From positions 17,100 to 81,099 of the forward strand of contig CACYMJ010000004.1 in the NCBI GenBank assembly GCA_902775485.1: DNA of 64,000 bases, given 5' to 3'. Position 1 is the first letter of the stretch, and each line of letters starts with the position of its first letter. The notes below the pieces were generated by a model. That model worked only from the letters and a program-made list of their open reading frames with translations. It ran no database searches and was not told the origin of the DNA. The translations under genes were made by a program, and so were the position numbers. This document shows positions 30,644-62,356 of the stretch, piece after piece. The DNA comes from an uncultured Lachnospiraceae bacterium. Its GTDB lineage: Bacteria > Bacillota > Clostridia > Lachnospirales > Lachnospiraceae.

Positions 30644-30664
30644 ATAATCTCCCCGGCTTCGGCC

Positions 30665-31951
30665 TCAGATCCTCGTAAGATAATTATCGATCTCCCACTG
30701 TGTGACTTCTCTTACAAACGCTCTCCACTCATCGCGCTTAACCTTTAAGTAATCGTTTATGAACGTATCGCCGAGTGCGTTTTTGATAACATCGTCTTTT
30801 TCAAGTTCGGCAAGCGCTTCCTTCAGATCCTCGGGAAGTGTCGGAGTCGATTCCGGATCGGCATCACAGCATTTTGTTCCCAATGCCGTCTGCTTCCTGA
30901 TACCGTCTATCCCCGCCGCAAGGCATGCGGCAAATACAAGATAGGGATTTGCGGATCCGTCGGGGAAACGCAGTTCTATCTTAACGTCGTCTATCTCCCT
31001 GGTGATATTGACAAGCGCCTTCTCGCCCTTATCGGCCCACGTGATCATAAACGGTGCATCATATCCGGACAGGAGTCTTTTATACGAATTGACCGAAGGA
31101 TCCGTTATGGCACACAGTGCCCGTGCGTGCTCCATAATACCGCCGGCAAACCACCGTGCCTCATCCGATGCCTCGCCGTTCTCGTTCATGAAAATATTTT
31201 TCCCGTCCCTTACAAGTTTCAGGTTCATATGCATTCCGGATCCGGCAACATCCTGACGCGGCTTGGGCATGAACGTGGCATACAGTCCGAAACGTTTGGC
31301 TATGGACCTTACCGCAAACTTGAAAGTCTGGATCGAATCGGCCATGGCAAGAGCTTCATCTTCCTTAAAATCTATCTCATGCTGTGCGGGAGCATGCTCA
31401 TGGAGCGATGACTCGATCTCAAAGCCCATATCCTCGAGCATCAGCACGATATCCCTTCTGGCATTCTCTCCGAAATCGGAAGGTCCTACATCCATATACT
31501 CGGCACGCTCGTGGCTCGTTGTCGTGGGCAGACCGTTCTCATCGGTATGAAACAGGAAAAACTCACATTCCGGATCTACTATCATCGAATACCCTGCCTT
31601 AGCGGCATTTTCAGACGCCTGTTTGAGTATGTATCTGGATCCGGCCTCAAAGGGCGTACCGTCCATGTAGCATACATCGCAGATGATCTTGGCAACCTTT
31701 CCCTGCTGCGGTCTCCACGGAAGTATCGTAAAAGTATCAAGATCAGGATACAGATACAGCCTGTCATCGAGCTCGCGGACATTCGCGTACATCGCCGATC
31801 CCTGGAACGAATACCCGTTTGCGAAAACCTTTTCCATCTGGACCGGGGTTACCGCCAGGTTTTTCAGCCTTCCGAAAATATCCGTGAACTGAAGCCTGAT
31901 AAACTCGACTCCCTCTTCTTCGATCATCCTCTGTATGTCTTCTTTTCGCAT
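30665..31951 (-). CDS. glnA: Glutamine synthetase, type I
   Basis: 428 residues. Signatures: FIRLQFTDIFGRLKNLAVT at the N-terminus, QGSAMYANVRE, PAQHEIDFKEDEAL, FMPKPRQDVAGSGMHMNLKL, and ELRFPDGSANPYLVFAA. It makes glutamine from glutamate, ammonia and ATP. The size and the lack of a recognisable adenylylation-site block fit the short GSI-alpha kind of Gram-positive bacteria. GGAGGG stands before the ATG. It heads the operon glnA-ANTAR-dapL; its leader contains a promoter, a terminator and a tandem repeat. Confidence 0.96.
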   Translation of the reverse strand: MRKEDIQRMIEEEGVEFIRLQFTDIFGRLKNLAVTPVQMEKVFANGYSFQGSAMYANVRELDDRLYLYPDLDTFTILPWRPQQGKVAKIICDVCYMDGTPFEAGSRYILKQASENAAKAGYSMIVDPECEFFLFHTDENGLPTTTSHERAEYMDVGPSDFGENARRDIVLMLEDMGFEIESSLHEHAPAQHEIDFKEDEALAMADSIQTFKFAVRSIAKRFGLYATFMPKPRQDVAGSGMHMNLKLVRDGKNIFMNENGEASDEARWFAGGIMEHARALCAITDPSVNSYKRLLSGYDAPFMITWADKGEKALVNITREIDDVKIELRFPDGSANPYLVFAACLAAGIDGIRKQTALGTKCCDADPESTPTLPEDLKEALAELEKDDVIKNALGDTFINDYLKVKRDEWRAFVREVTQWEIDNYLTRI

Positions 31952-32084: not shown

Positions 32085-33362
32085 TCAGATCACATCAAGC
32101 CCCTGCGCAAGATCCGCGATCAGATCATCTGCATTTTCAAGTCCCACCGAATAACGGATCAGATCCGGCGATATGCCTGCTTCGATAAGCTGCTGTTCGG
32201 ACAGCTGGCGGTGTGTATGGCTGGCGGGATGCAGCAGACATGTTCTCGCATCGGCAACATGGGTTGCGATCGTGGCAAGTTTTAACTTGTCCATGAATTC
32301 TATCGACTTATCCCTTCCTCCCTTCACGGCAAAACACAGAACTCCGCTGCTTCCCTTCGGGAGATACTTCTTCGCAAGTTCATGATACTCGTCATCGGGA
32401 AGATCCGGATAGTGTACCCACGCAACCTTTTCATGGCCTTTAAGGAATGTTGCGACCGCTAGCGCGTTCTCGCAGTGACGCTGTATCCTGACATGGAGTG
32501 ATTCAAGTCCCGTGTTTACATAGAATGCATTCTGAGGCGACTGTATGCATCCGAAATCCCTCATAAGCTGTGCGGTCGCCTTCGTGATATAGGCACCCTT
32601 CCCGAACTTTTCGGCATATACTATCCCGTGATAACTCTCATCGGGAGTAGTCAGGCCCGGAAACGTTTCGGCGTGAGCCATCCAGTCAAAGTTTCCGCTG
32701 TCAACTATCGCTCCTCCGACAGATACCGCATGACCGTCGATATACTTCGTGGTCGAATGCGTGACTATATCGGCACCCCATTCGATCGGTCTGCAATTTA
32801 CGGGAGTCGCAAACGTGTTATCGACTATAAGGGGTACTCCGTGGCTGTGCGCAAGGCGTACGAACTTTTCTATATCAAGTACACTGCACGTCGGATTGGT
32901 GATGGTCTCACCAAACACCGCTTTCGTATTGGGCTTGAAATATTTCGCCAGTTCTTCCTCAGGAAGAGTCTGGTCGACAAAAGTACATTCAATACCCATC
33001 TTCGCCATTGTGACCATAAAGAGGTTGTATGTTCCTCCGTAGATCGATGAGGACGCTATAAAGTGATCCCCGGCTTCGCATATATTGAACACTGCAAAAA
33101 AGTTCGCTGCCTGTCCGGATGAAGTGAGCATGCCCGCATATCCGCCTTCAAGAGCTGCGATCTTTTTTGCGGCCATGTCATTTGTGGGATTCTGAAGTCT
33201 CGTATAAAAATAGCCCTCGGCTTCAAGATCGAACAGTGCACCCATGTCATCACTCGTTGCGTATTTCCATGTTGTGCTCTGCCATATCGGCAGCTGTCTG
33301 GGTTCTCCGTTCCCGGGCTCATATCCCGCATGAAGACATTTTGTTTCGATTTGTGTACTCAT
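32085..33362 (-). CDS. O-acetylhomoserine sulfhydrylase-type PLP enzyme, copy 1
   Basis: 425 residues, Cys/Met metabolism PLP family. The PLP lysine is Lys206 (HSTTKYIDGH), with YTRLQNPTND and SSGQAANFFA in the N-terminal half and the C-terminal SHTHRQLSEQQL loop that binds the substrate carboxylate. The length and the large insertion fit MetY (homocysteine from O-acetylhomoserine and sulfide). Its ATG overlaps the stop codon of the upstream GAF/GGDEF-like sensor gene (ATGA), so it is the fourth gene of signalling operon A. Copy 2 at 42306-43586 is clearly different in sequence; the two probably differ in substrate or control. Confidence 0.9.
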   Translation of the reverse strand: MSTQIETKCLHAGYEPGNGEPRQLPIWQSTTWKYATSDDMGALFDLEAEGYFYTRLQNPTNDMAAKKIAALEGGYAGMLTSSGQAANFFAVFNICEAGDHFIASSSIYGGTYNLFMVTMAKMGIECTFVDQTLPEEELAKYFKPNTKAVFGETITNPTCSVLDIEKFVRLAHSHGVPLIVDNTFATPVNCRPIEWGADIVTHSTTKYIDGHAVSVGGAIVDSGNFDWMAHAETFPGLTTPDESYHGIVYAEKFGKGAYITKATAQLMRDFGCIQSPQNAFYVNTGLESLHVRIQRHCENALAVATFLKGHEKVAWVHYPDLPDDEYHELAKKYLPKGSSGVLCFAVKGGRDKSIEFMDKLKLATIATHVADARTCLLHPASHTHRQLSEQQLIEAGISPDLIRYSVGLENADDLIADLAQGLDVI

Positions 33363-35494
33363 TGTTTTCCTCCTTTTATCCTCTCGCCGGCAGTCCTGAT
33401 GACCCTCTGCATGTCGGTCGTACCGTTTTGACAGTACACGTATCCGACATTTACACTGATCCCGGCTTCGGCAGCTTTCTTTTCGAATTTAGCGACATCG
33501 TCGCAAAAATATGTTTCATCGGTTTCAAAACCGAATGCCGCAAATCTCGATCCGACCATACGGTAAACATTCTCTTTTCCGAATATGTCGGAGAGCATCT
33601 CGACCGTATCGATGACTTTTTTATCTCCGGCTTCAAGGCTCTCTTCTTCGCTTATCTTATCAAGATCGCATATCTCACATGAAATATATCCGAACGGAGA
33701 TGCCATATCAAGTCCGTTTTTGACAAACTCTTCGTATGCACGTCTGTTTCCGGCTCCCGAGAGCGAGTCGTTGTACGTATACGTTCTCATCCTCTTCTGA
33801 TCGTCACGACGTAAAATAAGCTGTGACAGGAAATAAGAAGTCAGCGCCGCAACCGACGTTGCCTCTTCGATCAGATTGGCAGGCAGATCGAGAAGGACCA
33901 GAAGTCCGGTCACATCGCCGTCGACCTCGAGCGGATTGACCACGGCACTGTCTGCATTATACGATCTTAGAAGATTATAAATGTTCTGATCGACATCCCG
34001 GTACTCTTCCATATCCGATATCAGGAACCTGTTGCCATTTTCCGAATATGATCTTAAAACCTCTTCCACAAATCCCCTGTACGGAAGATACAGAAGATCA
34101 ATGGATCTGTTCCCGAGACTTTGATCGAGCCATCCGTATTTACCCGCAAATCTGCCGTTATGCATATCCTCGAACACGATCGCTCTCTTGCACTTGAGTT
34201 CTTTGCCCATATATTCGAGCATCAGACGTATGCTCTCATCCGGGGAGTCTGACGAGAGTGCATACTGCAATGCCCTGTTCGTGAAACGTTCCCTTTCGAT
34301 GACCTCACGGTCCTTGGTCCACCATCTGATGAACTGTATCAATGCCACCGGCACAAGAATGAACGTTCCGAAACTTGTCAGGGCACCGTATGTGTTTCCG
34401 AATAACCGTTTGGTGGAATACAGGGCATAATCAGCCAGCGCACATACTATAAATACAGCGATCGCAACGTAATAAAACTTCATGCCCGACGCAATGCCGC
34501 TTCTGTGGCAGAACCGTTCGTTCTCGATGATCATAACGAGTGTCGAGATTATCACCACGGCATAAAAGATCATCAATACCTTCTGGAACGACTGCATCAT
34601 ATCGACCCCGGCCGCAAACCTGAGTATGAGCAGAATGGCGATCAGCAGCACACTTGAGCCAAATGCCGTAAGGGTATATATACGCCTCTTTTTTCTGGTA
34701 AGAGAATTGAAAAAACCGACAAGCGGTGCTCCGGCAAGAAGTATCAGAAATCTGTTCAGCACACGTACGACATATATATGATCCGTAACGAGCTGGTATA
34801 CATTTGTAAGTGCCATGAGCCAGGCACCTATCAGTACGGATGCCATCCCGAGATATGATACGTCAAAAGGGAGCCTTTCCCTGTCGGATACGACAAGGCT
34901 GATAAGAAGGAACACGATTCCGAAGAACAATATTAGTCCCGAGGCCACAAGAGCCAACGCGTTGCTTTTCAATTCCATATGAATATATGAAGCAGCGGGG
35001 CCCAGATACATATTGGTGATATATCCGCGTTTTGAAGAATACTTCGGATTACAGTTCGTAAAATACAGTTCTATTGTCTTTCCTGCATGATCCCTTCCGA
35101 GCCCCACCTCATGATATGCAGTTCCGTAACCCTTTCCGGTCAGGTTTTCCTTCGACTCGAACGAATAGATCTCGTGACCTTCCACAAGAACATAAACATT
35201 TACATTTGATGATTCAAAGCACAGGTCATCGCTGTCCTGTATGTTTTCCGGGAGCCGTTTTTGCAGCAGAGGAGATATCCCGCTCTCATCAACCCTCAGT
35301 TGTGATATGTCATACTCTTTCCCGTCACCGGCAGTCCAGCCGTTAACGAACGGACGCATATCCTCGACTCCGCCCTCATCGATCCGGACGGCAAATGCGA
35401 TCAAAACAACGGTAAGTAAAGCTGCCGATATCCCGAATACCAGCTGCAGAAGGCTGTTTCTGTTCATATGCTTTTTATTAAAAAGAGGTTTCAC
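33359..35494 (-). CDS. 7TM sensor with GAF and degenerate GGDEF domain
   Basis: 711 residues. One N-terminal membrane helix (about 15-37), an extracellular beta-rich domain of about 140 residues resembling 7TMR-DISMED2 (YVLVEGHEIYSF, GRDHAGKTIELYF), seven membrane helices (about 185-395), a GAF domain (about 405-560) and a C-terminal GGDEF-like domain. In that last domain the signature is V-G-S-R-F where G-G-D-E-F is expected, so it cannot make c-di-GMP and may bind a nucleotide or protein. It overlaps both neighbours by 4 nt (ATGA), indicating coupled translation between the DegV-type kinase and metY. Confidence 0.85.
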   Translation of the reverse strand: MKPLFNKKHMNRNSLLQLVFGISAALLTVVLIAFAVRIDEGGVEDMRPFVNGWTAGDGKEYDISQLRVDESGISPLLQKRLPENIQDSDDLCFESSNVNVYVLVEGHEIYSFESKENLTGKGYGTAYHEVGLGRDHAGKTIELYFTNCNPKYSSKRGYITNMYLGPAASYIHMELKSNALALVASGLILFFGIVFLLISLVVSDRERLPFDVSYLGMASVLIGAWLMALTNVYQLVTDHIYVVRVLNRFLILLAGAPLVGFFNSLTRKKRRIYTLTAFGSSVLLIAILLILRFAAGVDMMQSFQKVLMIFYAVVIISTLVMIIENERFCHRSGIASGMKFYYVAIAVFIVCALADYALYSTKRLFGNTYGALTSFGTFILVPVALIQFIRWWTKDREVIERERFTNRALQYALSSDSPDESIRLMLEYMGKELKCKRAIVFEDMHNGRFAGKYGWLDQSLGNRSIDLLYLPYRGFVEEVLRSYSENGNRFLISDMEEYRDVDQNIYNLLRSYNADSAVVNPLEVDGDVTGLLVLLDLPANLIEEATSVAALTSYFLSQLILRRDDQKRMRTYTYNDSLSGAGNRRAYEEFVKNGLDMASPFGYISCEICDLDKISEEESLEAGDKKVIDTVEMLSDIFGKENVYRMVGSRFAAFGFETDETYFCDDVAKFEKKAAEAGISVNVGYVYCQNGTTDMQRVIRTAGERIKGGKQ

Positions 35495-38400
35495 TTATCC
35501 GTTGCCTCCCGGTCGCTTTCCCGTAATACCTTCAGTATTTCCGTATATTGCCCAAGATGACGGACCAGCGCATCATTGTTTTTTTCGATATGATCAGCAT
35601 CACCGCTCTTACCCGCCTTCTCAAGCATGAGCGCCTCATCTGCCAGAAGCGTCGCGCCGATCAGAAGAGCCTTGGTCTTAAGGGCATGGACCTTGACGGT
35701 ATAATTGTGCCAGTCCCGCTCTTTGCAGTATCTGTTTATCTGTTCGATATCCTCTTCTATCGAAGAGTAAAACTCCTTTGCCGCCTCAAGGTACGTCTCT
35801 TCAGAGCCCGTGTTCCTCAGGCCGGTCACAGGATCTATTTCCGGCAGGCCGTCGTACCATTTTCCGCCGTCAGTTGATTCCTGTGTATCATCGTCTGAGC
35901 CGGATGGGATATCCTGATCCTCTTCCTGAGTCTGTACTGCAGCCTCATCATCTTCAAACAGTTTTGAAAGGTTGTACCGGTAATCACCCTCAAGCATGAA
36001 AATGACCGAAAATGCATCGATCCCCATATGGATCGGAAGAACGCATGACGTACGCTGGAACAGTATCCGTTCAAATCCGTATGTTTTCTTCAGATACTCT
36101 TCTATCTTATCCTTCTGTTCCTGTGTCATCTCGGCATAAACGACCACCGCCATCTCTTTGACCGGAGTCTCAAACGTGGGCAGCAGGTGATCGATGAACT
36201 TTTTGTAATATCTGTCAAAATCGCCTATAACGTAACGGTCAACACCGAACCCTCCGTTTTTGTATCTGATCATGGCGCGAATGCCCAGTGCTCTCATGAA
36301 GATCGCAATGCCTTCCCTGACAGGTCTGTTCTTACCGTAATAATATATGCTGTCGAGTACGAACGAGCAGACTATCCTCTTTTTTATCTTCTCAATCTGT
36401 TCGATGATGTTTTCAAAAGTCTCACCGCTTGTGGCCATTCTCTGGGCAATGAGTATCAAAAACCCGACTGCAGTCGAACAGCACTCGGCATCTATAACAG
36501 CCACGTTCCCGTATGATCTTGCGGCATCACACGCCCTTGCATACTCCGGACTTATGCCCGATGCTGCGGATATATATATAAGATTGTGCGCATACTTTAA
36601 GCATCTGCCGAAGAACATCCTGAACTCCTCAACCGTAGGAGGATCGCACGTGAATTTTTTTCCTTCGGAAATATATCTGACAAGTTCATCTCCTGATGTC
36701 TCAACTCCGTCATAGAATGTACGCCCGTCCGAAGCTATCGTATAAGGTATTGTTTCGATCTGATATTTCCCGACGATCCGCGGCGGAAGATCGCACGTTC
36801 CCGCACATGTTACTATTACCGGTATCTTACGGCTGTAATCCCTCGACGTAATCATACCCGTGCCCGCTTCATCCCTGTGTATGTCACGCTCAACCTTCGA
36901 CGCCGGAAGATGTGCCAGGAGCATCTCTTCAAGCTGCTGCCCCGTTACCGGTTTTAACAGATAATCTTCGAATCCGCTCTGCGCATACAACTGTCTGTTC
37001 TCACCCTCCGCATTGGCGGTGAGCACTATGATGGGGATCCTGTTGTTCAGTCCGCCGGCCTGCTTTCTTATCTGCTGCATGCACTCGATACCGTCCATCT
37101 CAGGCATCAGATGATCCATCAGGATTACATCGTATCGCTCCGTTCGCGTCATATTAAGCGCTTCGGCGCCGGATGTGACAGTATCCACAACTATCCTGGT
37201 ACCTTCAAGAAGTTTCTTTTCAACCTTCAGGTTCATCGTGCTGTCATCGACGATGAGCACCCTTGCATCGGGCGCAACAAACGAAGATTTATACGCCTTG
37301 CTCGCGCGGCTCTTTTGATAACTGTCAATGTCTATCGTACCGACCGCATCGCTTCTCGCAACCTTCTGGCGCAGCGTTACCGTAAAGGTGGAACCCTGGG
37401 TGTATATGCTGTCCACCGATATCCTGCCGCCCATAAGATCCACAAGCTGCTTGACTATCGAAAGTCCGAGTCCGGTTCCCTCTATCTTCGCGTTCCTTCC
37501 CTCATCCATTCTTCTGAAAGCATCATACAGGTACGGTATAACATCCTGCTTGATACCCATTCCGGTGTCGGAAACAGAGAAGATCATTACAACCTGGTCA
37601 CCCTCTAAACTCTCCCTTTCAATATGAAGAGTAACGCTGCCTTCCGCCGTATATTTGACGGCATTGTTCAGCAGGTTTACCAGTATCTGCTTGATACGTA
37701 TCTCATCGCCGTACAGTTCCGCAGGTGTTGACGGATCCAGTTCCACATTGAACTTAAGCCCCTTTTCTTCCGCACGGCCCCGGACCATGTTCACTATATC
37801 GGATACAAGGGAGGCGATACTGTAGTTCACCGGTACTATATCCATCTTACCGGCTTCTATCCTTGAAAAATCGAGTATGTCATTTATGAGTGCAAGAAGC
37901 ATGCGCCCCGCACCCTCAATGCTTTGTGCGTCCTTCCTTATGGATTCGGTTGCATCGGGATCTCTCAGTATTATCTCGTTCATACCGAGAATGGAGTTTA
38001 TGGGAGTTCTGATCTCATGGCTCATGTTGGAGAAGAAACGGTTCTGGTTTTTCCCGAGTTCTTCGACTTTCTTTGTCTCCTCCTTTGCCATTTCATTCTC
38101 ATGGGTGAACAGACGGTTCTGGAACCATGTCATGATAAAGCACACATACCCGACCTCCACTACGGCAAGGAAAGTATCCAGATGATGTATCTCCCTCGAG
38201 TACCGCACGACCAGCTCCGGATGGAAGTAATCGTAAGTAAATGCAGCGCAGACCAGAACGGTATACGTGATCAAAGCGGCGATACGCCAGCGTCCGGACA
38301 GAACAAGTCCCATATAAAGATATGCAAATATCAGCCAGGGAATGAGCGCCCCGTTCGTTCCGCCGCCGAAAAAGAACACGACCGGAAGTATTATGAAGAT

Positions 38401-38655
38401 AAGTGCAAACGATATGAATATGGTGGCTTCCTTAGCCTTTCCGTATCTGACACTGAACAGTGTGATGAACGGAACAGTCACGGTCGTAAACAGAAGTGTC
38501 AGTATCTCGACAATACTGTCGGCATACAGCACATCTCCGATAAAAGCAAGGGCACAGACACCGATCGAAGCCAGCGTGAACATGATGAACACACGCTCCT
38601 GGAGATTCCTCGAAGGATCCGATATGATGTTTCGAATGAACTTGCGAAGTTTCAT
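35491..38655 (-). CDS. Hybrid histidine kinase: HK-REC-DegV-HPt
   Basis: 1054 residues. Parts in order: six membrane helices (about 25-180); HisKA with His213 (SNMSHEIRTPIN); HATPase (N box LLNNAVKY, G1 DTGMGI, G2 GTGLGLSI; to 430); receiver 463-585 with Asp514 (ILMDHLMPEMDG); a DegV domain 611-890; an acidic linker; and an HPt domain 950-1050 with His990 (KVHALKTKALLIGA). The DegV part follows the family from VTCAGTCDLPPRIVGKYQIETIPYTI through SFVLDSIYYYGKNRPVREG to IHMGIDAFSVIF, where His876 stands at the usual DegV ligand-binding His. DegV (FakB) proteins bind fatty acids, so a lipid input to a phosphorelay is suggested. I know of no described protein of this design. Confidence 0.9.
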   Translation of the reverse strand: MKLRKFIRNIISDPSRNLQERVFIMFTLASIGVCALAFIGDVLYADSIVEILTLLFTTVTVPFITLFSVRYGKAKEATIFISFALIFIILPVVFFFGGGTNGALIPWLIFAYLYMGLVLSGRWRIAALITYTVLVCAAFTYDYFHPELVVRYSREIHHLDTFLAVVEVGYVCFIMTWFQNRLFTHENEMAKEETKKVEELGKNQNRFFSNMSHEIRTPINSILGMNEIILRDPDATESIRKDAQSIEGAGRMLLALINDILDFSRIEAGKMDIVPVNYSIASLVSDIVNMVRGRAEEKGLKFNVELDPSTPAELYGDEIRIKQILVNLLNNAVKYTAEGSVTLHIERESLEGDQVVMIFSVSDTGMGIKQDVIPYLYDAFRRMDEGRNAKIEGTGLGLSIVKQLVDLMGGRISVDSIYTQGSTFTVTLRQKVARSDAVGTIDIDSYQKSRASKAYKSSFVAPDARVLIVDDSTMNLKVEKKLLEGTRIVVDTVTSGAEALNMTRTERYDVILMDHLMPEMDGIECMQQIRKQAGGLNNRIPIIVLTANAEGENRQLYAQSGFEDYLLKPVTGQQLEEMLLAHLPASKVERDIHRDEAGTGMITSRDYSRKIPVIVTCAGTCDLPPRIVGKYQIETIPYTIASDGRTFYDGVETSGDELVRYISEGKKFTCDPPTVEEFRMFFGRCLKYAHNLIYISAASGISPEYARACDAARSYGNVAVIDAECCSTAVGFLILIAQRMATSGETFENIIEQIEKIKKRIVCSFVLDSIYYYGKNRPVREGIAIFMRALGIRAMIRYKNGGFGVDRYVIGDFDRYYKKFIDHLLPTFETPVKEMAVVVYAEMTQEQKDKIEEYLKKTYGFERILFQRTSCVLPIHMGIDAFSVIFMLEGDYRYNLSKLFEDDEAAVQTQEEDQDIPSGSDDDTQESTDGGKWYDGLPEIDPVTGLRNTGSEETYLEAAKEFYSSIEEDIEQINRYCKERDWHNYTVKVHALKTKALLIGATLLADEALMLEKAGKSGDADHIEKNNDALVRHLGQYTEILKVLRESDREATDK

Positions 38656-40715
38656 ACCCGTCCTCCCCTCTCATTCGTCGTATGAGTCATGCCGGGAAGG
38701 ACTCTGCTCATGGTACGTTCGAATTCATTAATGTCGATCGGCTTCCCGATAAATCCCGCAAAACCTTCGCGAATAAACATCTCTTTTGCACCGCTGACGA
38801 CATTCGCGGTAAGCGCGATCACTCTTGCCGTCTTTTGCTGCTGCAGGGCAACATCTTTTATCCTCTTCGCAGCCTCGATACCGTCCATCTGCGGCATCAT
38901 GTGATCCATGAACACCACATCATAATCATTTTCCGTAAATTTCCTGATCGCTTCAGCTCCGGAAGATGCAGTGTCGACCGACATGTTGTATTCCTTAAAC
39001 AGTCCGCGCGCAACGATCAGGTTCATCGGCTCATCATCGACAACGAGTGCTTTAACGCCGCTAAATACCGGACGCTCAAGCAGTGATTCCGATGTATGTA
39101 TTATCCCCGCCTCTCCGTTTAAAACACGTATGATCTGCACGGCACAAAGCGGCATGGGAATAACAGTGATCCGGCCGTTTTGCGACACAAATGATCCCGG
39201 TGTGCTGACGGCAACTGTTGTTTTTTCGGAAAGACTGTCATATAACGCCCTGTCCTTCGTATATTCCCTCTCTCCGACAAAAATGTGAGTTATATCACCT
39301 CTGTCCGCAAGCTTTGAAACCTCCGCGGCAGATGTTGCAAAATACATGTTTATCCTAAGATCCTGCGCAATGTTTGCCGCCATCTTCCTGTAGAATTCGA
39401 GCGTCTTCGATCCGCTGCGGCCGTGCTGATCAAAATGGAATACTACACCCGGTACAAGATCGCTCTTTAATACGAGGCACGGCGTCGGATCAATAACGGT
39501 CTGGGTCAGAGTGACAACGACACTTGTGCCCTTTTTCTTTTCGCTCTCGATACGGATAAAACCGTTCATGCACCGTACAAATCCGTAAATGATCGGAAGA
39601 CCCAGTCCTATACCTCCGGTACTTCTGTCCCTTCCTCTGCTGCTCTGATACATCCCGTAGTTGATCTTTGCTATCTCATCAGCCGACATACCTATTCCGC
39701 TGTCGGTAACTTCGATCACGAGGTTTGTGGTATCCGCGTGCTTTATCGTGGATATCCTCAGATAGACCGCACCCTTTAGGGTAAACTTAAATGCGTTGTC
39801 AAGAAGATGGCCGAGTATCTTGTTTATCCTTCCGGCATCACCGTACATTACGGACGGAACATTCGGATCCAGGTCCACTATCAGTTCCTTTCCCGAGTCC
39901 TTCTGATAATAGGAATATCCTGCTATGATATCGTTTATCATCGACGTTATCATGTAATTGCCTTCTTCAAGTATAACGTCTCTGCGCTGTATCTCACTGT
40001 AATTCTGGATATCGTCTATCTGACGTCCCAGACGTATCCCCGCATCGTTTATCGATGCAACATCATCCCTGTCCTCTTTCTTCATTATGATCGCTGACAG
40101 CCCGTTTATGACATTGACAGGTGTACGCAGTTCATGGGAAATGTTGACAAGAAAATCCTCCATGTCGCTCTTCTCTCTCATTTTTTCCGCGTTCCTGCGC
40201 TCCAGCTCCCTCGTATCTGCCATATCGTTTCTGATAACATCGTGAAGCACACGGAATATGATCATCTCTATGACCACATGAAGAAGTATCCTTGAAACGG
40301 TCAGCGAATCAAATATAAGAGTGCCGTTCCTGATCCCCATGAACAGCTGCATAATGACCATAACAAAAAACTCTGTAAGAAGTATATTGAGAAAAACGGG
40401 CCTTCTTAAAAGCGTGACCGTGACCATAAGAAGAACCGATACTATGACAAGATCAAAAAAACTGGTTTCGTGTACGCCATGATAGAATGCCATGAGCATG
40501 GCAAAGATAAGATAATAAGTCTCCCGAAACGTGCTCTGCCTGTACTGGAGAATGTGCATTATCCAGCACGCAACAAGACCGACCGCGATAAGCGGAGGTA
40601 CCCAGAACTCCCATCCCTGCGTAATGCTTTCCACGATCGCACTGAGTGCGCCTATGGTGATTATGATCACGACAGTATTATGGATTCTTGTATTCTGCTG
40701 GCTGTTATCGTTCAT
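38652..40715 (-). CDS. Hybrid histidine kinase: TM-HK-pseudoREC-REC
   Basis: 687 residues. About five membrane helices (12-160), HisKA with His194 (VNISHELRTPVNVI), HATPase (LLDNAFKFT, DSGIGM, GGIGLGLPI), then a 120-residue region of receiver-like shape without an acceptor Asp (VVFHFDQHGRSGSKTLEFY to IPMPLCAVQIIRVL), and a final true receiver (VKALVVDDEPMNL, VVFMDHMMPQMDG). It has no HPt; that domain is on the next gene, which overlaps it by 4 nt. First gene of operon A. Its closest relative in the window is the kinase at 57389-59980, which shares the same order of parts and adds an HPt. Confidence 0.9.
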   Translation of the reverse strand: MNDNSQQNTRIHNTVVIIITIGALSAIVESITQGWEFWVPPLIAVGLVACWIMHILQYRQSTFRETYYLIFAMLMAFYHGVHETSFFDLVIVSVLLMVTVTLLRRPVFLNILLTEFFVMVIMQLFMGIRNGTLIFDSLTVSRILLHVVIEMIIFRVLHDVIRNDMADTRELERRNAEKMREKSDMEDFLVNISHELRTPVNVINGLSAIIMKKEDRDDVASINDAGIRLGRQIDDIQNYSEIQRRDVILEEGNYMITSMINDIIAGYSYYQKDSGKELIVDLDPNVPSVMYGDAGRINKILGHLLDNAFKFTLKGAVYLRISTIKHADTTNLVIEVTDSGIGMSADEIAKINYGMYQSSRGRDRSTGGIGLGLPIIYGFVRCMNGFIRIESEKKKGTSVVVTLTQTVIDPTPCLVLKSDLVPGVVFHFDQHGRSGSKTLEFYRKMAANIAQDLRINMYFATSAAEVSKLADRGDITHIFVGEREYTKDRALYDSLSEKTTVAVSTPGSFVSQNGRITVIPMPLCAVQIIRVLNGEAGIIHTSESLLERPVFSGVKALVVDDEPMNLIVARGLFKEYNMSVDTASSGAEAIRKFTENDYDVVFMDHMMPQMDGIEAAKRIKDVALQQQKTARVIALTANVVSGAKEMFIREGFAGFIGKPIDINEFERTMSRVLPGMTHTTNERGGRV

Positions 40716-45598: not shown

Positions 45599-45605
45599 AA
45601 CGTGC

Positions 45606-45614
45606 ATTATAACA
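45606..45614 (-). promoter_or_regulatory. Extended -10 promoter of NUDIX-PgeF, predicted leaderless
   Basis: TGT-TATAAT on the minus strand (45614-45606) with no good -35. Exactly 7 nt (GCACGTT) separate it from the ATG at 45598. Confidence 0.6.
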
Positions 45615-45629
45615 TGCCGTAAACAAACG

Positions 45630-45638: not shown

Positions 45639-45645
45639 ATCTGAC

Positions 45646-54647: not shown

Positions 54648-57392
54648 TCACATCTTCTTTTTATACAGAAGTCCGAACGTTCCCGGCCCGCAGTTTACAG
54701 CAATGGTCGGGGACGCTTTCTGTATATAGACATTTTCAAAATGAACTTTGCTCTCTACGATCTGAGTTATAAAATCCAGTTCCTTCTTTGTAAGACCGAC
54801 ATATGTAATGAACAGTTCGGATCTGTCTATAGCCGATTCGTTTGACAGGCAGGAATTGATATATCTTCTCCAGGCATGTGATCTCGTTCCGAAATAGAAC
54901 TGTCTGGTACTCATGCGTCCGCCTCTCATGTTGATGACAGGATGGATCATAAATGCACGAAACAGTGCAGCGGTCCTGGTGCCGACCTGCCCGGATCTTG
55001 CCAGGAAATCAAGCGTATCAACAATGAAATTGGTATGAACATAATCCCTCATTGCCTTGATCCGTTCGGTTATCTCATCAACCGACATTCCGTCCGCTGC
55101 CATCCGGCAGGCTTCGAGCACAAGTATTCCCTGTCCGCTCGATAAATGTCTCGTATCCAGTACCGTAACATTGTCAAATGCCGCCGCCCCGTCTACCGCA
55201 TCATCAAATCCGCTGTGGTTGACCCGTGTGGAGATGGTAAGATGCAGCACGTTGTTTGCACCCGCAAGAGCCTTCGCGAAGAACTCCTCGTGCTCCTTTG
55301 CCGTGGGTGCAAGTGTTTTTACGTAATCGTTCGACGCCATATAGTCAAGCAGACCATCCGAATCTATCTCGACCCCGTCGGCAAATACACCGTTTTTTGT
55401 TTTGACCTTGTGGGGGATCTGCGCGATATTGTACCGTTCGCGGAGGCTTGCCGGAATATCCGCAACGCTTTCCGTCGTTATCGCAACCGCCCTTTTCTTC
55501 CTGTGTTCGTCCATCCATGACATACTGTTGATAAGGATATCATCACTGCCGCCCGTCAGCGTGACCTTATCCCTCGGAAGAAGTCTCATAAGCTCGGCCT
55601 CAAGTTCTACGGAGTTTATGGGCTTTACGATGTAGCCGTCAAATCCTCTGTCCGAATACATTTTCTTCATTTCACTTCCGGCATTTGCCGTCAGTGCTAC
55701 GATCTTTGCATTCTTTGACATTCCTCCGACCTGGTCGCGTATCCTGCCAAATGCTTCCACACCGTCCATCTCCGGCATAAGATGATCCATAAAGATAACA
55801 TCATACGCCACCTCAAGAGTCTTCTCGAGTGCCTTTGCGCCGGAATCTGCCGTATCAAGAATGACCTTCGTATCACGCAGAAGTTTTCTGATGACCATAA
55901 GATTGGACTCATTGTCATCCACCGCCAAAACATGAGCAGCCGGTGCCTCGAACGTGCTCCGGTACTGTCCCGACATATTGGCTCTGTGTTTGTTCTCGAG
56001 ATTTATATTACCTATCTGCGAAAAATCAGTGACCTTCTGCGGTATCCGGATAACAAATGTCGATCCCTGGGTATAAACGCTGTTGACACTGACGCTGCCG
56101 CCCATAAGTTCGGTCAGTTGTTTTACTATGCTAAGTCCGAGTCCCGTTCCTTCGATGTAACGGTTCTCCTCCTCGTCAACACGTCTGAATGCCGTGAACA
56201 GATGTGGCAGATTTTCTTTTTTGATACCTATTCCGGTATCGGTTACGGAATAGATGATATCGGCCTTCTGATCATTGATACCGTTACACTGGATGGAAAG
56301 CGTGACCGACCCTTTCTGCGTGTATTTGATCGCATTGTTCAAAACGTTGATGAGTATCTGTTTTATCCTCACCTCATCGGCATACAGTTCTGACGGGATA
56401 TCTGGTGCAACCTCGACATGAAATTCCAGCCCCTTCTCCCTTGCGCGCATCCACAGCATTCCGACTATCTCGGAAAGCATATCTCCCGGACGGTAATTTA
56501 CCGGTGTCAGTTTCATCTGGCCCGATGATATCTTGCTCATATCAAGGATATCGTTGATAAGATGCAAAAGCATGTTGGAAGCGGCTCTTATGTTTGCGGC
56601 ATCTTCCGCGACCTCATCGTTTACCTTTTCGCGCAGTATCATCTCATTAAGTCCGATGATGGTATTGATCGGTGTTCTGATCTCATGACTCATGCTCGAG
56701 AAAAACCTGTTCTGAGCCCGGTTCAGATCATCGATCTCCTTTTTCTGTTCTTCGTAAACGATGGATCTGACCCTTATGGAAAACTGCAGGAAATACAGCA
56801 TCAGGGCAAAAACAATACGGAGCGCAAATGTCACGGCAACAACCGCTGTCAGCGGAGATGCGGCATCAAGCTGCCGGGTCAGATTATTATAGACGATAAG
56901 CATTGCTATATCGGCAATTCCGGCTGTCAGCAGATAAGCGAGCGGATGCATATACACGCACATAGGGACTACAAGCGACGTACATATATACAATATCGGA
57001 TTTGCAAAACCGAGTGCATGTGCGTTCAAAACCGTAGCAATGATCGCCCACACAAGAGTGAGTACGGCAAGCGACGGCATCAGATACAAAAGCATCGAAA
57101 ACCATGCATCAAAATCACGTTTGACAAACCTGATCAGGATTATGACAAAAATCATAACAACCAGCAGCGATGCATATACATATCTGTACTGCACCACGAA
57201 CTGCGCCGCTGCATGTTTTGCGGTAAAACTGGCAATAAGCGCCACCAGCTGCAAAGCTCCCGCAAGTGAACAGAACAGCGTTATCTTGTCAAGCGCAGAA
57301 GCATAAATGGATCTGTTGATACTGTCCTCATATTTGATCGAACCTTTTCTGTGAAGAAAATACGGCAGAAAATCGGCAAATGATACTCTCAT
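54648..57392 (-). CDS. Hybrid histidine kinase: HK-REC-DegV
   Basis: 914 residues. Six membrane helices (about 35-205), HisKA with His236 (SSMSHEIRTPIN), HATPase (LNNAIKY, DTGIGI, GTGLGLSI; to 452), receiver 487-605 with Asp536 (IFMDHLMPEMDG), and a DegV domain at 634-912 up to the C-terminus. The DegV signatures are clear: AITTESVADIPASLRERYNI, FIVDTLDFLARSGQVG and NCGPGTFGLLY, though the usual His before Gly-Pro-Gly is replaced (VNCGPG). There is no HPt; the neighbouring kinase, whose stop overlaps this start by 4 nt, carries one. It is the sister of the protein at 35491-38655. Confidence 0.9.
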   Translation of the reverse strand: MRVSFADFLPYFLHRKGSIKYEDSINRSIYASALDKITLFCSLAGALQLVALIASFTAKHAAAQFVVQYRYVYASLLVVMIFVIILIRFVKRDFDAWFSMLLYLMPSLAVLTLVWAIIATVLNAHALGFANPILYICTSLVVPMCVYMHPLAYLLTAGIADIAMLIVYNNLTRQLDAASPLTAVVAVTFALRIVFALMLYFLQFSIRVRSIVYEEQKKEIDDLNRAQNRFFSSMSHEIRTPINTIIGLNEMILREKVNDEVAEDAANIRAASNMLLHLINDILDMSKISSGQMKLTPVNYRPGDMLSEIVGMLWMRAREKGLEFHVEVAPDIPSELYADEVRIKQILINVLNNAIKYTQKGSVTLSIQCNGINDQKADIIYSVTDTGIGIKKENLPHLFTAFRRVDEEENRYIEGTGLGLSIVKQLTELMGGSVSVNSVYTQGSTFVIRIPQKVTDFSQIGNINLENKHRANMSGQYRSTFEAPAAHVLAVDDNESNLMVIRKLLRDTKVILDTADSGAKALEKTLEVAYDVIFMDHLMPEMDGVEAFGRIRDQVGGMSKNAKIVALTANAGSEMKKMYSDRGFDGYIVKPINSVELEAELMRLLPRDKVTLTGGSDDILINSMSWMDEHRKKRAVAITTESVADIPASLRERYNIAQIPHKVKTKNGVFADGVEIDSDGLLDYMASNDYVKTLAPTAKEHEEFFAKALAGANNVLHLTISTRVNHSGFDDAVDGAAAFDNVTVLDTRHLSSGQGILVLEACRMAADGMSVDEITERIKAMRDYVHTNFIVDTLDFLARSGQVGTRTAALFRAFMIHPVINMRGGRMSTRQFYFGTRSHAWRRYINSCLSNESAIDRSELFITYVGLTKKELDFITQIVESKVHFENVYIQKASPTIAVNCGPGTFGLLYKKKM

Positions 57393-59980
57393 GCTTCGCC
57401 TCCTTCCTCGCCCATAGGGCCGAATTCAAGTATATCGTCATCGGATGATGCCGAAACTTCATCCGCCACGCTCTCATCCACAGCTGCCGGGAGTATGGAC
57501 AGGATCCTGTCATACATCACGAGCATTGCTTCATGATTGGCATCTATATACTCCCTGTCATTTTTCTTTCCGGCTTCTTCAAGCTCTCTTGCGGCTTCCG
57601 AGAGTTGCATCGCACCTATCATCTTGGAAGTGCTCTTTATCGAATGTACCTGGATCGCATAAGCGGCAAGATCGTTCTCATCAAGAGACTTCTTCATCAG
57701 GTTCTTTTTGACCGGGGACTCTTTTGCATACTGTGCAAGCAGCGAAATATAGAACTCTCTGTCGTTCTGGCTGTAATAGAGCCCCTTATTTACATCCACA
57801 CCGTAAGATACAAGCCTTGAGATCACGTCATTCGTTTCGGATTCTTTTTCGTGCTCCGCTTTTCCTGCGTCATAAGCCGGGCCCGTTTTCGCTTCATTAT
57901 CTTCCGGCTCCGCATCGATCACCTGATAGGACGCCGGCAGAACATGCTTCAGTACACGCTCAAGTTCAACACGGTCGACGGGTTTGGATACAAATCCGTC
58001 AAATCCCTCCTGTCTGAACATTTCCTTTGCCGAACTTACCGCATTTGCCGTAAATGCGATGATCGGAACGCTTTTTTTGTTTCTTGCAAGATCGCTCCTG
58101 ATCCTCTTCATTGCCTCGACACCATCCATACCGGGCATCATATGATCCATGAAAATGATATCGTATTCGTTTGCGCGGCACAGTTCTATTGACTCCATGC
58201 CACTCTCACATGTCGTAACGACCATGCCGTATCCCTTGAACATTCCCGATGAAACTATAAGGTTCATAGGTTCATCATCTACTATCAGAGCGCGTACACC
58301 CGGGAATGTCAGTTTACCCTCATCGGTGATATCATCATCGACCGTGCTGTTTAATATACTGACAACAGGGAAACAGTAAAACGGTTTGGGCATCAGACGG
58401 ACGCGCGAGCCCTTCGGAAGATCTATCTCCCCGGGATTTGCGACAACGGTCACTATTATGTTTTTTGCAAGTTCCTCAATATAATCCCTTGCACTTAAAT
58501 ACTCCTCGGGACCGGCAAAAAGATGTGTAAGCCTTTTGCTGTCATTAAGTGCATGCAGTGACTCTTTGTTCTCCACCCTGTGCATGGACACCTTCAGGCC
58601 CGTAACGAGATTTTTGACCATTGAGTCATAGTATTCCCTGACATGCGGATCGGGGTATTTATCGAAGTGAAGATATGCACCGAGGCTGATGTTTTCACGG
58701 TCCGCCACTGACATACAGCACTCATCGTCAATAACCCTGCTCGGAATTGATACCCTGACACATGTTCCCTGTTCAGGTGTGCTGTCAACTGTCATGAATC
58801 CGCCGAGCGACCTTACAAACCCCAGAACAATGGGCATGCCCAGACCAAGGCCTCCGGTCCTTCGTGCTCTTCCCGAATCAGCCTTATAGAAGTTGTCAAA
58901 TATCTGCTCAAGCTGGGCTGCATCCATACCGATTCCGGTATCCTTTATCTCGATGCAAAGGTTAATGCCGTATTCCTGGGGTACAGCCGAAAGGTGGACA
59001 TACACTCCGCCTTCGTTCGTGAACTTTATACCGTTCATGATCAGATGCCACAGGATCTTTTTCAGTTTTGCGACATCCGTGTTCATGACGGAAGGTATCG
59101 ATGCGTCAACATCAATGATGAGTTCTATGTTTGTTTTTCTGTACGGCGCAAGTTCATTAACGAGATCGTTAAGTACGGACGAGAGCATGTAGTCCTCATA
59201 GTTATTCGTCAGATCGCTCCTGTCTATCTCGGAATAATCAAGGATATCGCTTATCTGTTCGCCTATCTTCTTGCCGGCCTCCTCTATGGATGCGAGGTTG
59301 GAGCGTTTGGCAATGTCAGTCTCCTCTTCCATTGTCATATCGCATAATCCCAGTATGGCATTGATGGGCGTTCTGATCTCATGAGAGATGTTGGCAAGAA
59401 AATCTCCGAGGCGCTCAGCCGCTATCGTCAGCTGCTTGATCTCCTCCTCGGAATGCCCGAGTACTTCCTTCCATTTGTCGATTATGACCCTTGCCAGCCA
59501 GCAGATCATTGTTACCATGGCAAAATGAAGGAATGTTCTTGTAACAAGAAGAGGATCAAATACCTCTCCGCTTCTTGCAAGCTGTATGATCGCATATATC
59601 ATGGTGATATAGTAAGTATACTGACAGAGCGTGATCAGCGAATGCATTGCCGTCATGATATACAGAATTATCACGGCTGACATGACTATGGCCAGATCGT
59701 ATGTACTGGTGATATGCGATCCGTAATAAAAGAATGTTGCCATCATAAGAAAGGCTACGATCCACAGTCTCATACTGTCGGTGCCCCTGCGCATGATATG
59801 CATATACCATGATATGGCAATACCGCCGGTTATAAGGATCACTGCCCATTTTTCCCAGTCCATCACAAATATCTCGCAGACAAGTATGATCGAGAATATC
59901 GTGTAACTGATGACCATCATCATCTGGGATGATATGAACAGTTCATTACTGTTATTGCCGCTTTTGTCCTGCTTTCCCAT
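57389..59980 (-). CDS. Hybrid histidine kinase: TM-HK-pseudoREC-REC-HPt
   Basis: 863 residues. About six membrane helices (20-168), HisKA with His200 (LANISHEIRTPINAI), HATPase (LIMNGIKFT, DTGIGM, GGLGLGMPI), a receiver-like region without acceptor (LHFDKYPDPHVREYYDS to MPKPFYCFPVVSIL), a true receiver (VRALIVDDEPMNL, IIFMDHMMPGMDG) and a C-terminal HPt with the phospho-His in AIQVHSIKSTSKMIGA. It begins directly after the stop of the HD-GYP gene (TAAATG) and overlaps the next gene by 4 nt. Its relative in operon A (38652-40715) lacks the HPt. Confidence 0.9.
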   Translation of the reverse strand: MGKQDKSGNNSNELFISSQMMMVISYTIFSIILVCEIFVMDWEKWAVILITGGIAISWYMHIMRRGTDSMRLWIVAFLMMATFFYYGSHITSTYDLAIVMSAVIILYIMTAMHSLITLCQYTYYITMIYAIIQLARSGEVFDPLLVTRTFLHFAMVTMICWLARVIIDKWKEVLGHSEEEIKQLTIAAERLGDFLANISHEIRTPINAILGLCDMTMEEETDIAKRSNLASIEEAGKKIGEQISDILDYSEIDRSDLTNNYEDYMLSSVLNDLVNELAPYRKTNIELIIDVDASIPSVMNTDVAKLKKILWHLIMNGIKFTNEGGVYVHLSAVPQEYGINLCIEIKDTGIGMDAAQLEQIFDNFYKADSGRARRTGGLGLGMPIVLGFVRSLGGFMTVDSTPEQGTCVRVSIPSRVIDDECCMSVADRENISLGAYLHFDKYPDPHVREYYDSMVKNLVTGLKVSMHRVENKESLHALNDSKRLTHLFAGPEEYLSARDYIEELAKNIIVTVVANPGEIDLPKGSRVRLMPKPFYCFPVVSILNSTVDDDITDEGKLTFPGVRALIVDDEPMNLIVSSGMFKGYGMVVTTCESGMESIELCRANEYDIIFMDHMMPGMDGVEAMKRIRSDLARNKKSVPIIAFTANAVSSAKEMFRQEGFDGFVSKPVDRVELERVLKHVLPASYQVIDAEPEDNEAKTGPAYDAGKAEHEKESETNDVISRLVSYGVDVNKGLYYSQNDREFYISLLAQYAKESPVKKNLMKKSLDENDLAAYAIQVHSIKSTSKMIGAMQLSEAARELEEAGKKNDREYIDANHEAMLVMYDRILSILPAAVDESVADEVSASSDDDILEFGPMGEEGGEA

Positions 59981-62356
59981 TTACTGCTCCCTTAACATGT
60001 AGTCCTTGTCACTGTCAATGATGTCGACCATGATATCCGCAAATATCGGATCAAACTGCGTACCCCTGCACCTTATTATCTCTTCCCTGACCTCGTTCTG
60101 GGGGAGCGTATCGCGATAGCTCCTGTGACTGGTCATGGCATCATATGCATCGGCAACGGATATTATCCTTGCAACTTCAGGGATCTCCTCTCCGGACTTA
60201 TGATCCGGATAGCCCGTACCGTCATATCTTTCATGGTGCCATCTTGCACCGTTTATCAGATTCGGCATTTCTTTAATGGAAGAGAGTATCTGTGTTCCTA
60301 TGACCGGATGGGTCTTGATGATCTCGTATTCATCGTCGGAAAGCCGCGTATTCTTGTTGATTATCGCATCGGGTATACCTATTTTACCGACATCGTGAAG
60401 CAGTCCTATGATATATATCTCGTTCTGCTGTTCCTCGGTATAACCGTACTTTTCCGCGATCATCCTTGAATATGTCGCAACACGGCTTGAATGACCGTTG
60501 GTGTATTTGTCCTTTGCATCTATCGCATATGCAAGTGCTTTGATGATATGTATGCTCAGCTTTTCGATGTCCTCGGTCCTTTTCTCGACCTCCCTGCTCA
60601 GATGGTCTTTCAGACGCGAAAGCTGCATAACGTTGTTAACCCGGATATAAAGCTGCTCATCCGAAAGCGGCATGCGCAAAAACTCACTCACTCCGAGTTC
60701 AAGCGCTCTTTGTTCATATGATTCATCGTTGAGTATGAAGATGACCGGTATGCGCCTTACGGCTCCTCCCATCTTCCTGATCCCGACAAGTGTATCCGTA
60801 CCGCTCATCCCGTTCATTGACGCCCGCATGATGATAAGGTCGGGCTTCGTATCATCAAGCAGTTCAAGCGCACTTTTTCCGTCAGGTTTTCCGACAATAT
60901 CCAGACCTTTTGATGAAAGTATATCTACAATATGATCAAGCTCCTGTCTGTCATCATCGACCACCATGATGATGCCGTCTCCCTCGGAACCGTCGGAAGC
61001 ACTGTCATGCATTTCGCTGTCGGTGCTCTCCGTCTCGACCGTCAGCTTGACAAGCCCGCTGTACTGGTTGTTGTTCCATGCATGCATGACCCTTTCGGTT
61101 ACGCGGTTGACGTTATAATCGCTTATCTCCGGAAGCATCAGGAAGAAATGATTATCCCCTATCTGCATCATGATATCGCTGTTTCGAAGCGACTCCTGAA
61201 GCAGTTCGCGCAGGCTCAGCATTATCTTCTGTTTCTCCGACTGTGACAGATCCTTGGGGATAAACTTGGCGGTAAAAAGCATCTTGTAAGCGGTCCCGCG
61301 ATATCTGTCCATATATCTGATCATGTATCTGTAAACATTTCCGAACGCTTCCTTACCCATCCACATCGCATTCTGTGGAATATTTCTCTCCTCAAGTATC
61401 GTGGTGAGCATGGAAAGATTGATATCGGAGGGAATGGAGGATGCGGCATCGTCATCGTCGATGTACAGGGAATATCCGTGTTTACCGTTGTTCTTGATCG
61501 TATAAAGTGCACGGTCCGACAGTCTGAACAGCTCATTAAAATCCGTGCCCTGTTCGGGAACAAAGATCGCACCTATGGAAGCACCGAGCGGTATGCTCAT
61601 ATCCTCTCCCATCATTAAGCGTGCTTCGTTTATGAGACTGCGGTTGATCGAATCGGAATACCTGGCGATCTCCTTTTCCTCTTTTAGGTTCTCGGCAAAA
61701 AGCAGGAACTCATCACCGCCTATACGGCCGAACACCGTGGGGAACATCATATTTTCCTTGAGTATCTGCGAGAACTTCGCAAGGACACGGTCACCCATGT
61801 CATGACCGTAAATATCATTTACAAGTTTGAATGAATCAAGATCGACGATCATCAGTGTGCCCTGTTTGCTCAGGCACATTTGCGTTATATGTTCGTTTGC
61901 ATTGTATTTGTTCAGGAAGCCCGTCAGTTTATCGATGGTGGCTTCCTCTTCATACTTGAGCATTCTGCCGCGTGTGCTGATGATGTTGTTGACACGGCGC
62001 ACAAGGACATCCGGATCAAAGGGTTTTCTGATATAGTCGGATACACCCATCTCGAATCCCTTACTCTCATTAGCCTTGTCTTCATCGGCGGTGAGCATGA
62101 CGACAGGTGTTGCCGGAACAAGCTTTTCATCTTCAAGCGCACGGAATCTGTTATATGTCTCAAACCCGTCCATCTCCGGCATATTGATATCCAGAAGAAC
62201 AAGGTCCGGGAATCCGTGTTCATCATCTCTGACATAATCAAGAAGTGCCTGTCCGCTTTTTACGGCAATGACACGCATGTTGTTCTTTGACAGTATCTGT
62301 CCGGCCATCTTAAGGTTTGTGACATCATCATCTACAACGATAACCCAGCTTGCCAT
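59981..62356 (-). CDS. Response regulator: REC-GGDEF-degenerate GGDEF-pseudoREC-HD-GYP
   Basis: 791 residues, no membrane segments. Receiver 1 (1-125) has Asp56 (LVLLDINMPEMDG). A GGDEF domain (about 140-305) has intact R-I-G-G-D-E-F. A second GGDEF-like region (about 320-450) has Q-I-G-D-N-H-F and must be inactive. A second receiver (about 470-590) has Arg in place of the phosphoacceptor (LIIMRASMNGMSG). The C-terminal HD-GYP domain has HDVGKIGIPDAI and HHERYDGTGYPD and should degrade c-di-GMP. One protein thus has both synthesis and breakdown parts. It precedes the two kinases of operon B and is their obvious output. Confidence 0.92.
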   Translation of the reverse strand: MASWVIVVDDDVTNLKMAGQILSKNNMRVIAVKSGQALLDYVRDDEHGFPDLVLLDINMPEMDGFETYNRFRALEDEKLVPATPVVMLTADEDKANESKGFEMGVSDYIRKPFDPDVLVRRVNNIISTRGRMLKYEEEATIDKLTGFLNKYNANEHITQMCLSKQGTLMIVDLDSFKLVNDIYGHDMGDRVLAKFSQILKENMMFPTVFGRIGGDEFLLFAENLKEEKEIARYSDSINRSLINEARLMMGEDMSIPLGASIGAIFVPEQGTDFNELFRLSDRALYTIKNNGKHGYSLYIDDDDAASSIPSDINLSMLTTILEERNIPQNAMWMGKEAFGNVYRYMIRYMDRYRGTAYKMLFTAKFIPKDLSQSEKQKIMLSLRELLQESLRNSDIMMQIGDNHFFLMLPEISDYNVNRVTERVMHAWNNNQYSGLVKLTVETESTDSEMHDSASDGSEGDGIIMVVDDDRQELDHIVDILSSKGLDIVGKPDGKSALELLDDTKPDLIIMRASMNGMSGTDTLVGIRKMGGAVRRIPVIFILNDESYEQRALELGVSEFLRMPLSDEQLYIRVNNVMQLSRLKDHLSREVEKRTEDIEKLSIHIIKALAYAIDAKDKYTNGHSSRVATYSRMIAEKYGYTEEQQNEIYIIGLLHDVGKIGIPDAIINKNTRLSDDEYEIIKTHPVIGTQILSSIKEMPNLINGARWHHERYDGTGYPDHKSGEEIPEVARIISVADAYDAMTSHRSYRDTLPQNEVREEIIRCRGTQFDPIFADIMVDIIDSDKDYMLREQ

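Follow-up and report, generated by a model that had tools for sequence, protein, structure and literature searches.

DegV-bearing hybrid histidine kinases of Lachnospiraceae form a family of paired kinases and suggest a putative lipid-sensing route

We describe here a histidine kinase gene carrying a DegV domain, the fold of the FakB fatty-acid carriers, in a 64,000-nucleotide stretch (the window) of contig CACYMJ010000004.1 (positions 17,100 to 81,099, forward strand; assembly GCA_902775485.1) from an uncultured Lachnospiraceae bacterium. The gene, on the minus strand, is a single uninterrupted frame of 1054 codons that encodes, in order, a membrane region, HisKA, HATPase, a receiver (REC), DegV and HPt. 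A preliminary description made from the letters alone had read this order and had placed HisKA His213, REC Asp514, HPt His990 and the DegV histidine of an IHMG motif (His876); translation and Pfam agree with it throughout, with the Hpt match below cut-off. We distinguish three types of DegV kinase: L, with the order REC-DegV-HPt; S, with a C-terminal DegV and the HPt on a partner kinase; and N, with an N-terminal DegV. The source genome has three DegV kinases, two in the window (Table 1) and, on another contig, a third of 1132 aa that has an HPt.

Table 1. Features of the two DegV-kinase operons in the window
Feature	Position	Strand	Description and basis
L-type DegV-bearing hybrid kinase	35491..38655	minus	1054 aa; Pfam, translation, AlphaFold model
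DegV domain, residues 604-892	35980..36846	minus	His876 at the place of FakB1 His270; alignment, model
Partner hybrid kinase, HisKA-HATPase-REC	38652..40715	minus	687 aa; shares 4 bases with the L-type kinase; Pfam, gene order
Gene after the L-type kinase	33359..35494	minus	711 aa; 4-base overlap; translation, domain scans
Second DegV-bearing hybrid kinase, S type	54648..57392	minus	914 aa, HisKA-HATPase-REC-DegV; Pfam DegV 161.2 bits
Partner of the S-type kinase, HisKA-HATPase-REC-HPt	57389..59980	minus	863 aa; overlaps the S-type kinase by 4 bases; Pfam Hpt 36.7 bits
S-operon regulator	59981..62356	minus	791 aa; REC x2, GGDEF x2, HD_5 (HD-GYP like); Pfam

Pfam places HisKA (residues 204-269, 66.8 bits), HATPase_c (316-430, 93.3 bits) and Response_reg (466-579, 91.9 bits) of the 1054-aa protein well over their cut-offs, and DegV (619-887) scores 121.7 bits (E 4.6e-35; cut-off 27). 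The Hpt match at 960-1029 has 18.6 bits, under the cut-off of 24.6. The equivalent region of five L-type relatives scores 24.0-40.3 bits, four of the five over the cut-off, and the HPt histidine is present in all 21 aligned rows that reach this domain. Twelve residues, from the HisKA histidine, the N/D/G-box and the receiver Asp/Asp/Asp/Thr/Lys set, are identical in 33 of 33 rows. On these sequence matches to HisKA, HATPase and REC, the L-type DegV kinase is a hybrid kinase with a receiver and a predicted HPt. The full-length AlphaFold model (mean predicted local distance difference test score, pLDDT, 80.0; predicted template modelling score, pTM, 0.54) has helices at 18-43, 48-70, 74-96, 104-118, 121-144 and from 154, which we read as six membrane helices with short loops between them. 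An assembly chimera was rejected, the identical architecture and gene order being found in other genomes, and we judge an origin of the frame by chance or artefact unlikely.

Modelled alone, the DegV domain gave a pLDDT of 84.5 and a pTM of 0.83. Structure prediction had been named beforehand as the test that could overturn the DegV assignment, which came through it: in a Foldseek search against the PDB, ranks 1-45 were all DegV/FakB chains, with template modelling (TM) scores on the query of 0.74-0.86. The FakA C-terminal domain came next at 0.50. By sequence and predicted fold, the domain at 604-892 belongs to the DegV family (PF02645). The FakA C-terminal domain, described in passages of PMC9136124 as having no fatty-acid tunnel, was ruled out as an alternative by this difference in TM score. 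Against that exclusion, PF13684 (FakA-like_C) has a match of 24.0 bits (cut-off 23) covering some of the DegV region at locus L094, and it also matches part of that region in L088 at 18.9 bits, under the cut-off, and a standalone DegV of the source genome at 36.3 bits; the DegV model is far stronger in both L094 (135.8 bits) and L088 (163.3 bits). In the DegV tree one branch with support 100/100 splits the fused domains from 34 standalone domains. With midpoint rooting, a standalone 286-aa DegV of the source genome (L001) branches next to the fused domains (99/99), and is possibly their nearest standalone kin.

The DegV-kinase fusion is a family and no one-off. Fused genes in the genome samples were counted by hand as open frames of at least 700 aa, with a domain check on part of them only, and the figures concern this DegV lineage alone, so that other fusions of histidine kinase and DegV would escape. 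Among the matches listed, a fused frame is found in at least 32 of 36 genomes of the same genus, in at least 3 of 12 genomes from other genera of the host family, and in 0 of 31 genomes from other families of the same order. The preliminary description had also called for an occurrence count, and in a wider sample of the host family (E up to 1e-65) 67 of 397 genomes (58 of 334 genera) carry a long-frame DegV; one of the 67, G170, has HATPase-DegV only (L135), and 10 more genomes matched with shorter frames only. Across a class sample (391 genomes, E up to 1e-50), such frames lie outside the host family only in 3 genomes of one genus. A narrow-pattern scan of contigs returned 17 loci, 2 of them standalone DegV. 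No DegV-histidine kinase fusion turned up in the literature searched (titles, the starts of abstracts and some passages, with little subscription literature), in keeping with the earlier remark that no protein like this had been described. The architecture is new; the kind of system, a hybrid-kinase phosphorelay, is known.

In these operons a partner hybrid kinase precedes the DegV kinase, and just one member of the pair bears an HPt. Within the window an HPt was looked for in the 687-aa partner and in the 914-aa S-type kinase, and was found in neither. In a first set, for which the next gene upstream of each fused kinase was taken, the pair rule held in 50 of 52 pairs: the HPt is on the DegV kinase and not on the partner in 28 (27 L-type, 1 N-type), and on the partner and not on the DegV kinase in 22. 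Half of the pairs (26/52) show a 4-base overlap between partner and DegV kinase. One exception is L088, where a second DegV kinase follows the first and an HPt-bearing kinase precedes both; the other is L094. This locus (4951-7563) and L135 (4790-7378) encode HATPase-DegV proteins without HisKA, REC or partner kinase, each followed by a 459-aa gene and then by a GGDEF gene of 553-554 aa. Four genes were dropped from the first set, two because they are truncated, one because its neighbour is, and one for want of upstream sequence; L010, L058, L059 and L061 had been excluded beforehand as copies of other loci. A second set of 20 loci was hand-picked from the genome-sample listings once the rule had been seen; all 16 testable pairs obey it, as 13 and 3, and none breaks it. 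The four untestable loci are L133, whose partner is split into two frames, the second being REC-HPt; L134, where the DegV kinase is cut before the place an HPt would show; L135, which is like L094; and L142, which has no upstream gene. The HPt model behind the pair counts was iterated from the HPt of the 1054-aa kinase itself, and it finds an HPt in the L071 partner, for which Pfam (E 0.001) lists none. N-type kinases occur at L093 (2808-7544), where there is additionally a dCache domain, at L134 (5431-8304) and at L147 (4447-7329), where a REC was looked for in the kinase and not found.

In the kinase tree all L-type kinases fall to the same side of a branch supported at 100/100. In the partner tree, which omits the near-copies L064 and L065 and the L088 gene neighboured by a DegV kinase, the L partners (27) and the N partners (3), in none of which an HPt was found, are two separate groups, and given the starred branches the S label must have changed at least twice. 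On this tree the HPt appears to have switched protein at least twice, and the rule therefore rests on at least two independent changes and not on 66 independent pairs. The rule would offer a natural test of how far a phosphorelay tolerates the transfer of a domain between partner proteins.

Passages on Staphylococcus aureus FakB1 (PMC8892158, PMC9136124) describe Thr62, Ser95 and His270, with Ser171, as holding the fatty-acid carboxylate, Arg173 as covering it and being required for catalysis, and Arg205 as docking to FakA. We placed these residues on the fused domains by alignment and motif, and compared them with 34 standalone DegV proteins from 43 candidate frames, controls which lean canonical, being best-scoring hits plus those of the source genome. 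The controls keep His270 in 33, Arg173 in 34, Thr62 in 33 and Ser95 in 32. Among the fused domains with a letter at the His270 place, 32 of 34 have Asn, one has Lys, and only the 1054-aa kinase has His. The earlier suggestion that a kept final histidine makes ligand binding plausible does not carry over to the family, which has Asn instead. At the other places the 35 fused domains have Ser (22) or Thr (8) for Thr62, Ser in 24 for Ser95, and Arg (14) or Gln (12) for Arg173. In the Arg205 loop, where the register is unsure, all 34 controls have an Arg in one of two columns and none of the 35 fused domains does; these mostly have a hydrophobic residue followed by Gly, the latter in 35 of 35, and in 15 an Arg or Lys follows one or two columns later. 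As a set, the carboxylate network Thr62-Ser95-His270 was not found in the 35 aligned fused domains, and neither was Arg173 together with Arg205.

The conservation of the fused domains has its own pattern. Positions Asp622, Ser727, Gln867, Ser870, Asn876 and Gly878 are within the top 43 of 289 columns by conservation, and 876 alone of these six maps to the FakB site. We read this as a pocket that may be retained but re-specified. The domain of the 1054-aa kinase is, as the preliminary description had it, diverged: 22 of 60 conserved DegV columns are changed, more than in any of the other 34 rows, which have 0-15, and the GPG loop is altered. Its carboxylate network reads Cys, Ser and His, and by alignment it has Pro778 at the Arg173 place and Ile810-Gly811 at the Arg205 columns. 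This copy is a divergent member that may bind something else or nothing.

Genes beside the kinases point to possible outputs, in gene runs many of which are shortened by contig ends. A REC-bearing HD_5 (HD-GYP like) gene shares the gene run in 15 of the 39 S-type rows, in 2 of the 3 N-type rows and in none of the 32 L-type rows. Runs with GGDEF but no HD-GYP are those of 3 S-type and 6 L-type rows and of both HATPase-DegV rows. A REC protein of 251-261 aa lies directly downstream in 15 of 32 L-type rows. For this count the contig-cut L053 was entered as S and the partner fragments of L068 and L133 as REC genes; L132 is N-terminally short. In the window, the S-type regulator of 791 aa is, by domain content, a predicted output for the turnover of cyclic di-GMP (c-di-GMP). 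The gene run of the 1054-aa kinase has no REC-only, GGDEF or HD-GYP gene, and its next gene encodes the 711-aa protein. Read from the translation, that protein has apparent membrane segments and a GGDEF-like region that lacks the motif itself; its sole match is GAF (14.5 bits, E 0.051), under cut-off, with the CbrR model at E 0.0069, far under cut-off. It is a possible candidate for the output of the L-type operon.

Each pair brings together two HisKA/HATPase cores and two receivers with a single HPt and a single DegV domain. We put at about even the chance that the DegV kinase is one half of a two-kinase phosphorelay tuned by a re-specified DegV ligand domain. The two kinases would form a complex, and phosphoryl groups from one or both cores would travel by way of the receivers to the single HPt and from there to a regulator. 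The HPt would be reached in cis in L-type operons, that of the 1054-aa kinase included, and in trans in S-type operons. Less certainly, the DegV fold would be a cytoplasmic ligand domain of fatty-acid-carrier descent, re-specified since Asn replaces the histidine of the carboxylate network and the FakA-docking Arg is missing; it may bind a fatty-acid-like or other amphipathic molecule and shift the balance of kinase and phosphatase, and would not pass its ligand to FakA. Membrane-attached kinases with a fatty-acid-carrier fold and a partner kinase suggest a putative lipid-sensing route. Asn at 876 in 32 of 34, together with near-fixed Asp622, Ser727, Gln867, Ser870 and Gly878, indicates constraint on polar positions and favours this reading, as do the domain matches, the pair rule, the two separate clades of partners in which no HPt was found, the invariant catalytic residues, the FakB-like fold, the separate branch of the fused DegV domains and the c-di-GMP regulators in some of the gene runs. 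Several observations weigh against it. The Thr62, Ser95 and Arg173 equivalents rank just 117, 149 and 171 of 289 columns, which speaks against a retained pocket. Mutation of the carboxylate network destabilises FakB, according to passages of PMC8892158, so that domains with the Asn might hold no fatty acid. Both the DegV and the HPt of the 1054-aa kinase are weak for their kind, and a REC-only, GGDEF or HD-GYP gene is missing from the gene run of 13 of 32 L-type and 12 of 39 S-type rows, many runs being cut short by contig ends. We also dropped as evidence the correlation of distances within pairs (r 0.93, 48 pairs), which shared descent alone could produce. The fullest form of the proposal, in which a fatty-acid carrier was recruited family-wide as a cytoplasmic sensor, lost its hand-over to FakA, acquired an Asn-based site for the head group and acts through a two-kinase, one-HPt relay that sets c-di-GMP, is tentative and rather doubtful. 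If the DegV fold is the sensor, there would be a second use for fatty-acid carriers and a testable pathway from lipid to c-di-GMP in a large family of gut bacteria.

The altered ligand-network and latch residues, with three of the four mapped places not specially conserved, would also be expected if the DegV fold were a ligand-free docking or dimerisation module, joining the two kinases or docking a regulator, with a vestigial pocket. FakB1 binds the FakA C-terminal domain through the DegV fold (passages of PMC9136124), and a partner kinase adjoins the HK-REC-DegV genes whose upstream side is readable (as two split frames in L133, and with an intervening DegV kinase in L088). The FakB-like fold, however, spans the whole domain, Asn876 is almost fixed, hardly the outcome expected of a dead pocket left to drift, and the HATPase-DegV proteins of L094 and L135 have no adjoining partner kinase. 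We regard such a module as unlikely, though with a real chance of being right. The preliminary description held that the DegV domain of the 1054-aa kinase binds fatty acid in the manner of FakB and gates transfer between receiver and HPt by its position. His876 is present in that copy and the order REC-DegV-HPt is common to the L-type rows (28 in the DegV-tree grouping), but the histidine is peculiar to a copy with a changed GPG loop and 22 of 60 changed columns. The DegV domain is moreover C-terminal in S-type relatives, with the HPt on the partner, and N-terminal in N-type relatives, so its placement between REC and HPt is no common feature of the family. We consider such gating very improbable; of the earlier interpretation, the DegV fold within a hybrid kinase with an HPt stands, and the arguments from the histidine and from REC-HPt gating find no support in the form given. 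Most improbable to us is that the domain still acts as a FakB, presenting fatty acid to FakA for phosphorylation and so linking lipid synthesis to signalling. It shares the fold of FakB, and the source genome encodes a 578-aa frame whose C-terminal domain is FakA-like, as well as five standalone DegV frames. Against this, the docking Arg is at neither aligned column in 35 of 35 fused domains, with Arg or Lys slightly further on in 15, and present in 34 of 34 controls; Arg173 is absent in 21 of 35 and His270 replaced in 33 of 34, against an Arg173 in 34 of 34 controls and a His270 in 33 of 34.

Other genes were noted around these operons. Two O-acetylhomoserine sulfhydrylase-like genes (32085-33362 and 42306-43586, both minus) border the L-type operon, with purA at one side; the former overlaps the 711-aa gene by 4 bases. 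Elsewhere, L-type kinases are followed by a DUF6976 gene (L064:9275-11768) and a sodium:alanine symporter (L069:9047-10573), relatives of which recur at such places (clusters c9 and c3). Close to the S-type operon are patatin-like phospholipase and diacylglycerol-kinase-like genes (51502-53276, minus), and cluster c11, of the 306-aa gene in this region, has a member at the equivalent place in L063. A 636-aa protein (48668-50578, minus) combines a LacI-like sugar-binding domain with GGDEF and is a candidate sugar-reading diguanylate cyclase. The window also encodes a NUDIX domain fused to Cu-oxidase_4 (laccase-like; 44354-45694, minus; 446 aa from a TTG start) and a 178-aa ANTAR-domain protein adjoining glutamine synthetase (30107-31951, minus).

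Among known systems, the FakB/DegV proteins (PF02645) are alike in fold and homologous over the whole domain. They differ in that the domain is here part of a kinase and on a separate branch of the tree, with the docking Arg not at the aligned place in 35 of 35, Asn standing in for His270 in 32 of 34 and an Arg173 equivalent present in 14 of 35. ShkA of Caulobacter, in the part of PMC7010744 seen, likewise has a central ligand-binding domain that controls kinase activity, there a pseudo-receiver that binds c-di-GMP and not a DegV fold. GacS with its LadS/RetS multikinase network (PMC4866733, in part) shares the convergence of at least two hybrid kinases on one relay, whereas the partner of the DegV kinase is encoded adjacent, often overlapping, with the HPt on either protein. 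The RpfC/RpfG system of Xanthomonas, which senses the diffusible signal factor (DSF), comprises a membrane hybrid kinase with REC and HPt and, in the same cluster, a REC-HD-GYP regulator (excerpts of PMC3749722); the input of RpfC is a fatty acid, DSF, sensed by an N-terminal stretch of 22 residues (excerpts of PMC5391125). Kinase, REC and HPt are shared. A REC-bearing HD_5 gene likewise neighbours the kinases in 15 of the 39 S-type rows and in 2 of the 3 N-type rows, and the second operon in the window has such a REC-HD-GYP regulator. The differences are that the RpfC domains described in the excerpts of PMC3749722 include no DegV, that DegV-kinase pairs are two kinases with one common HPt, and that an HD-GYP gene is found in 0 of 32 L-type gene runs, that of the 1054-aa kinase included. 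Since the RpfC sensor is a short N-terminal stretch and the operon of the 1054-aa kinase is without the regulator, we do not class this operon as RpfC/RpfG. By analogy, the DegV-kinase relay resembles RpfC/RpfG in its probable working, often beside c-di-GMP regulators. If the proposal is true, gut bacteria would have a counterpart of DSF sensing in which free fatty acids or a dedicated lipid signal are read inside the cell.

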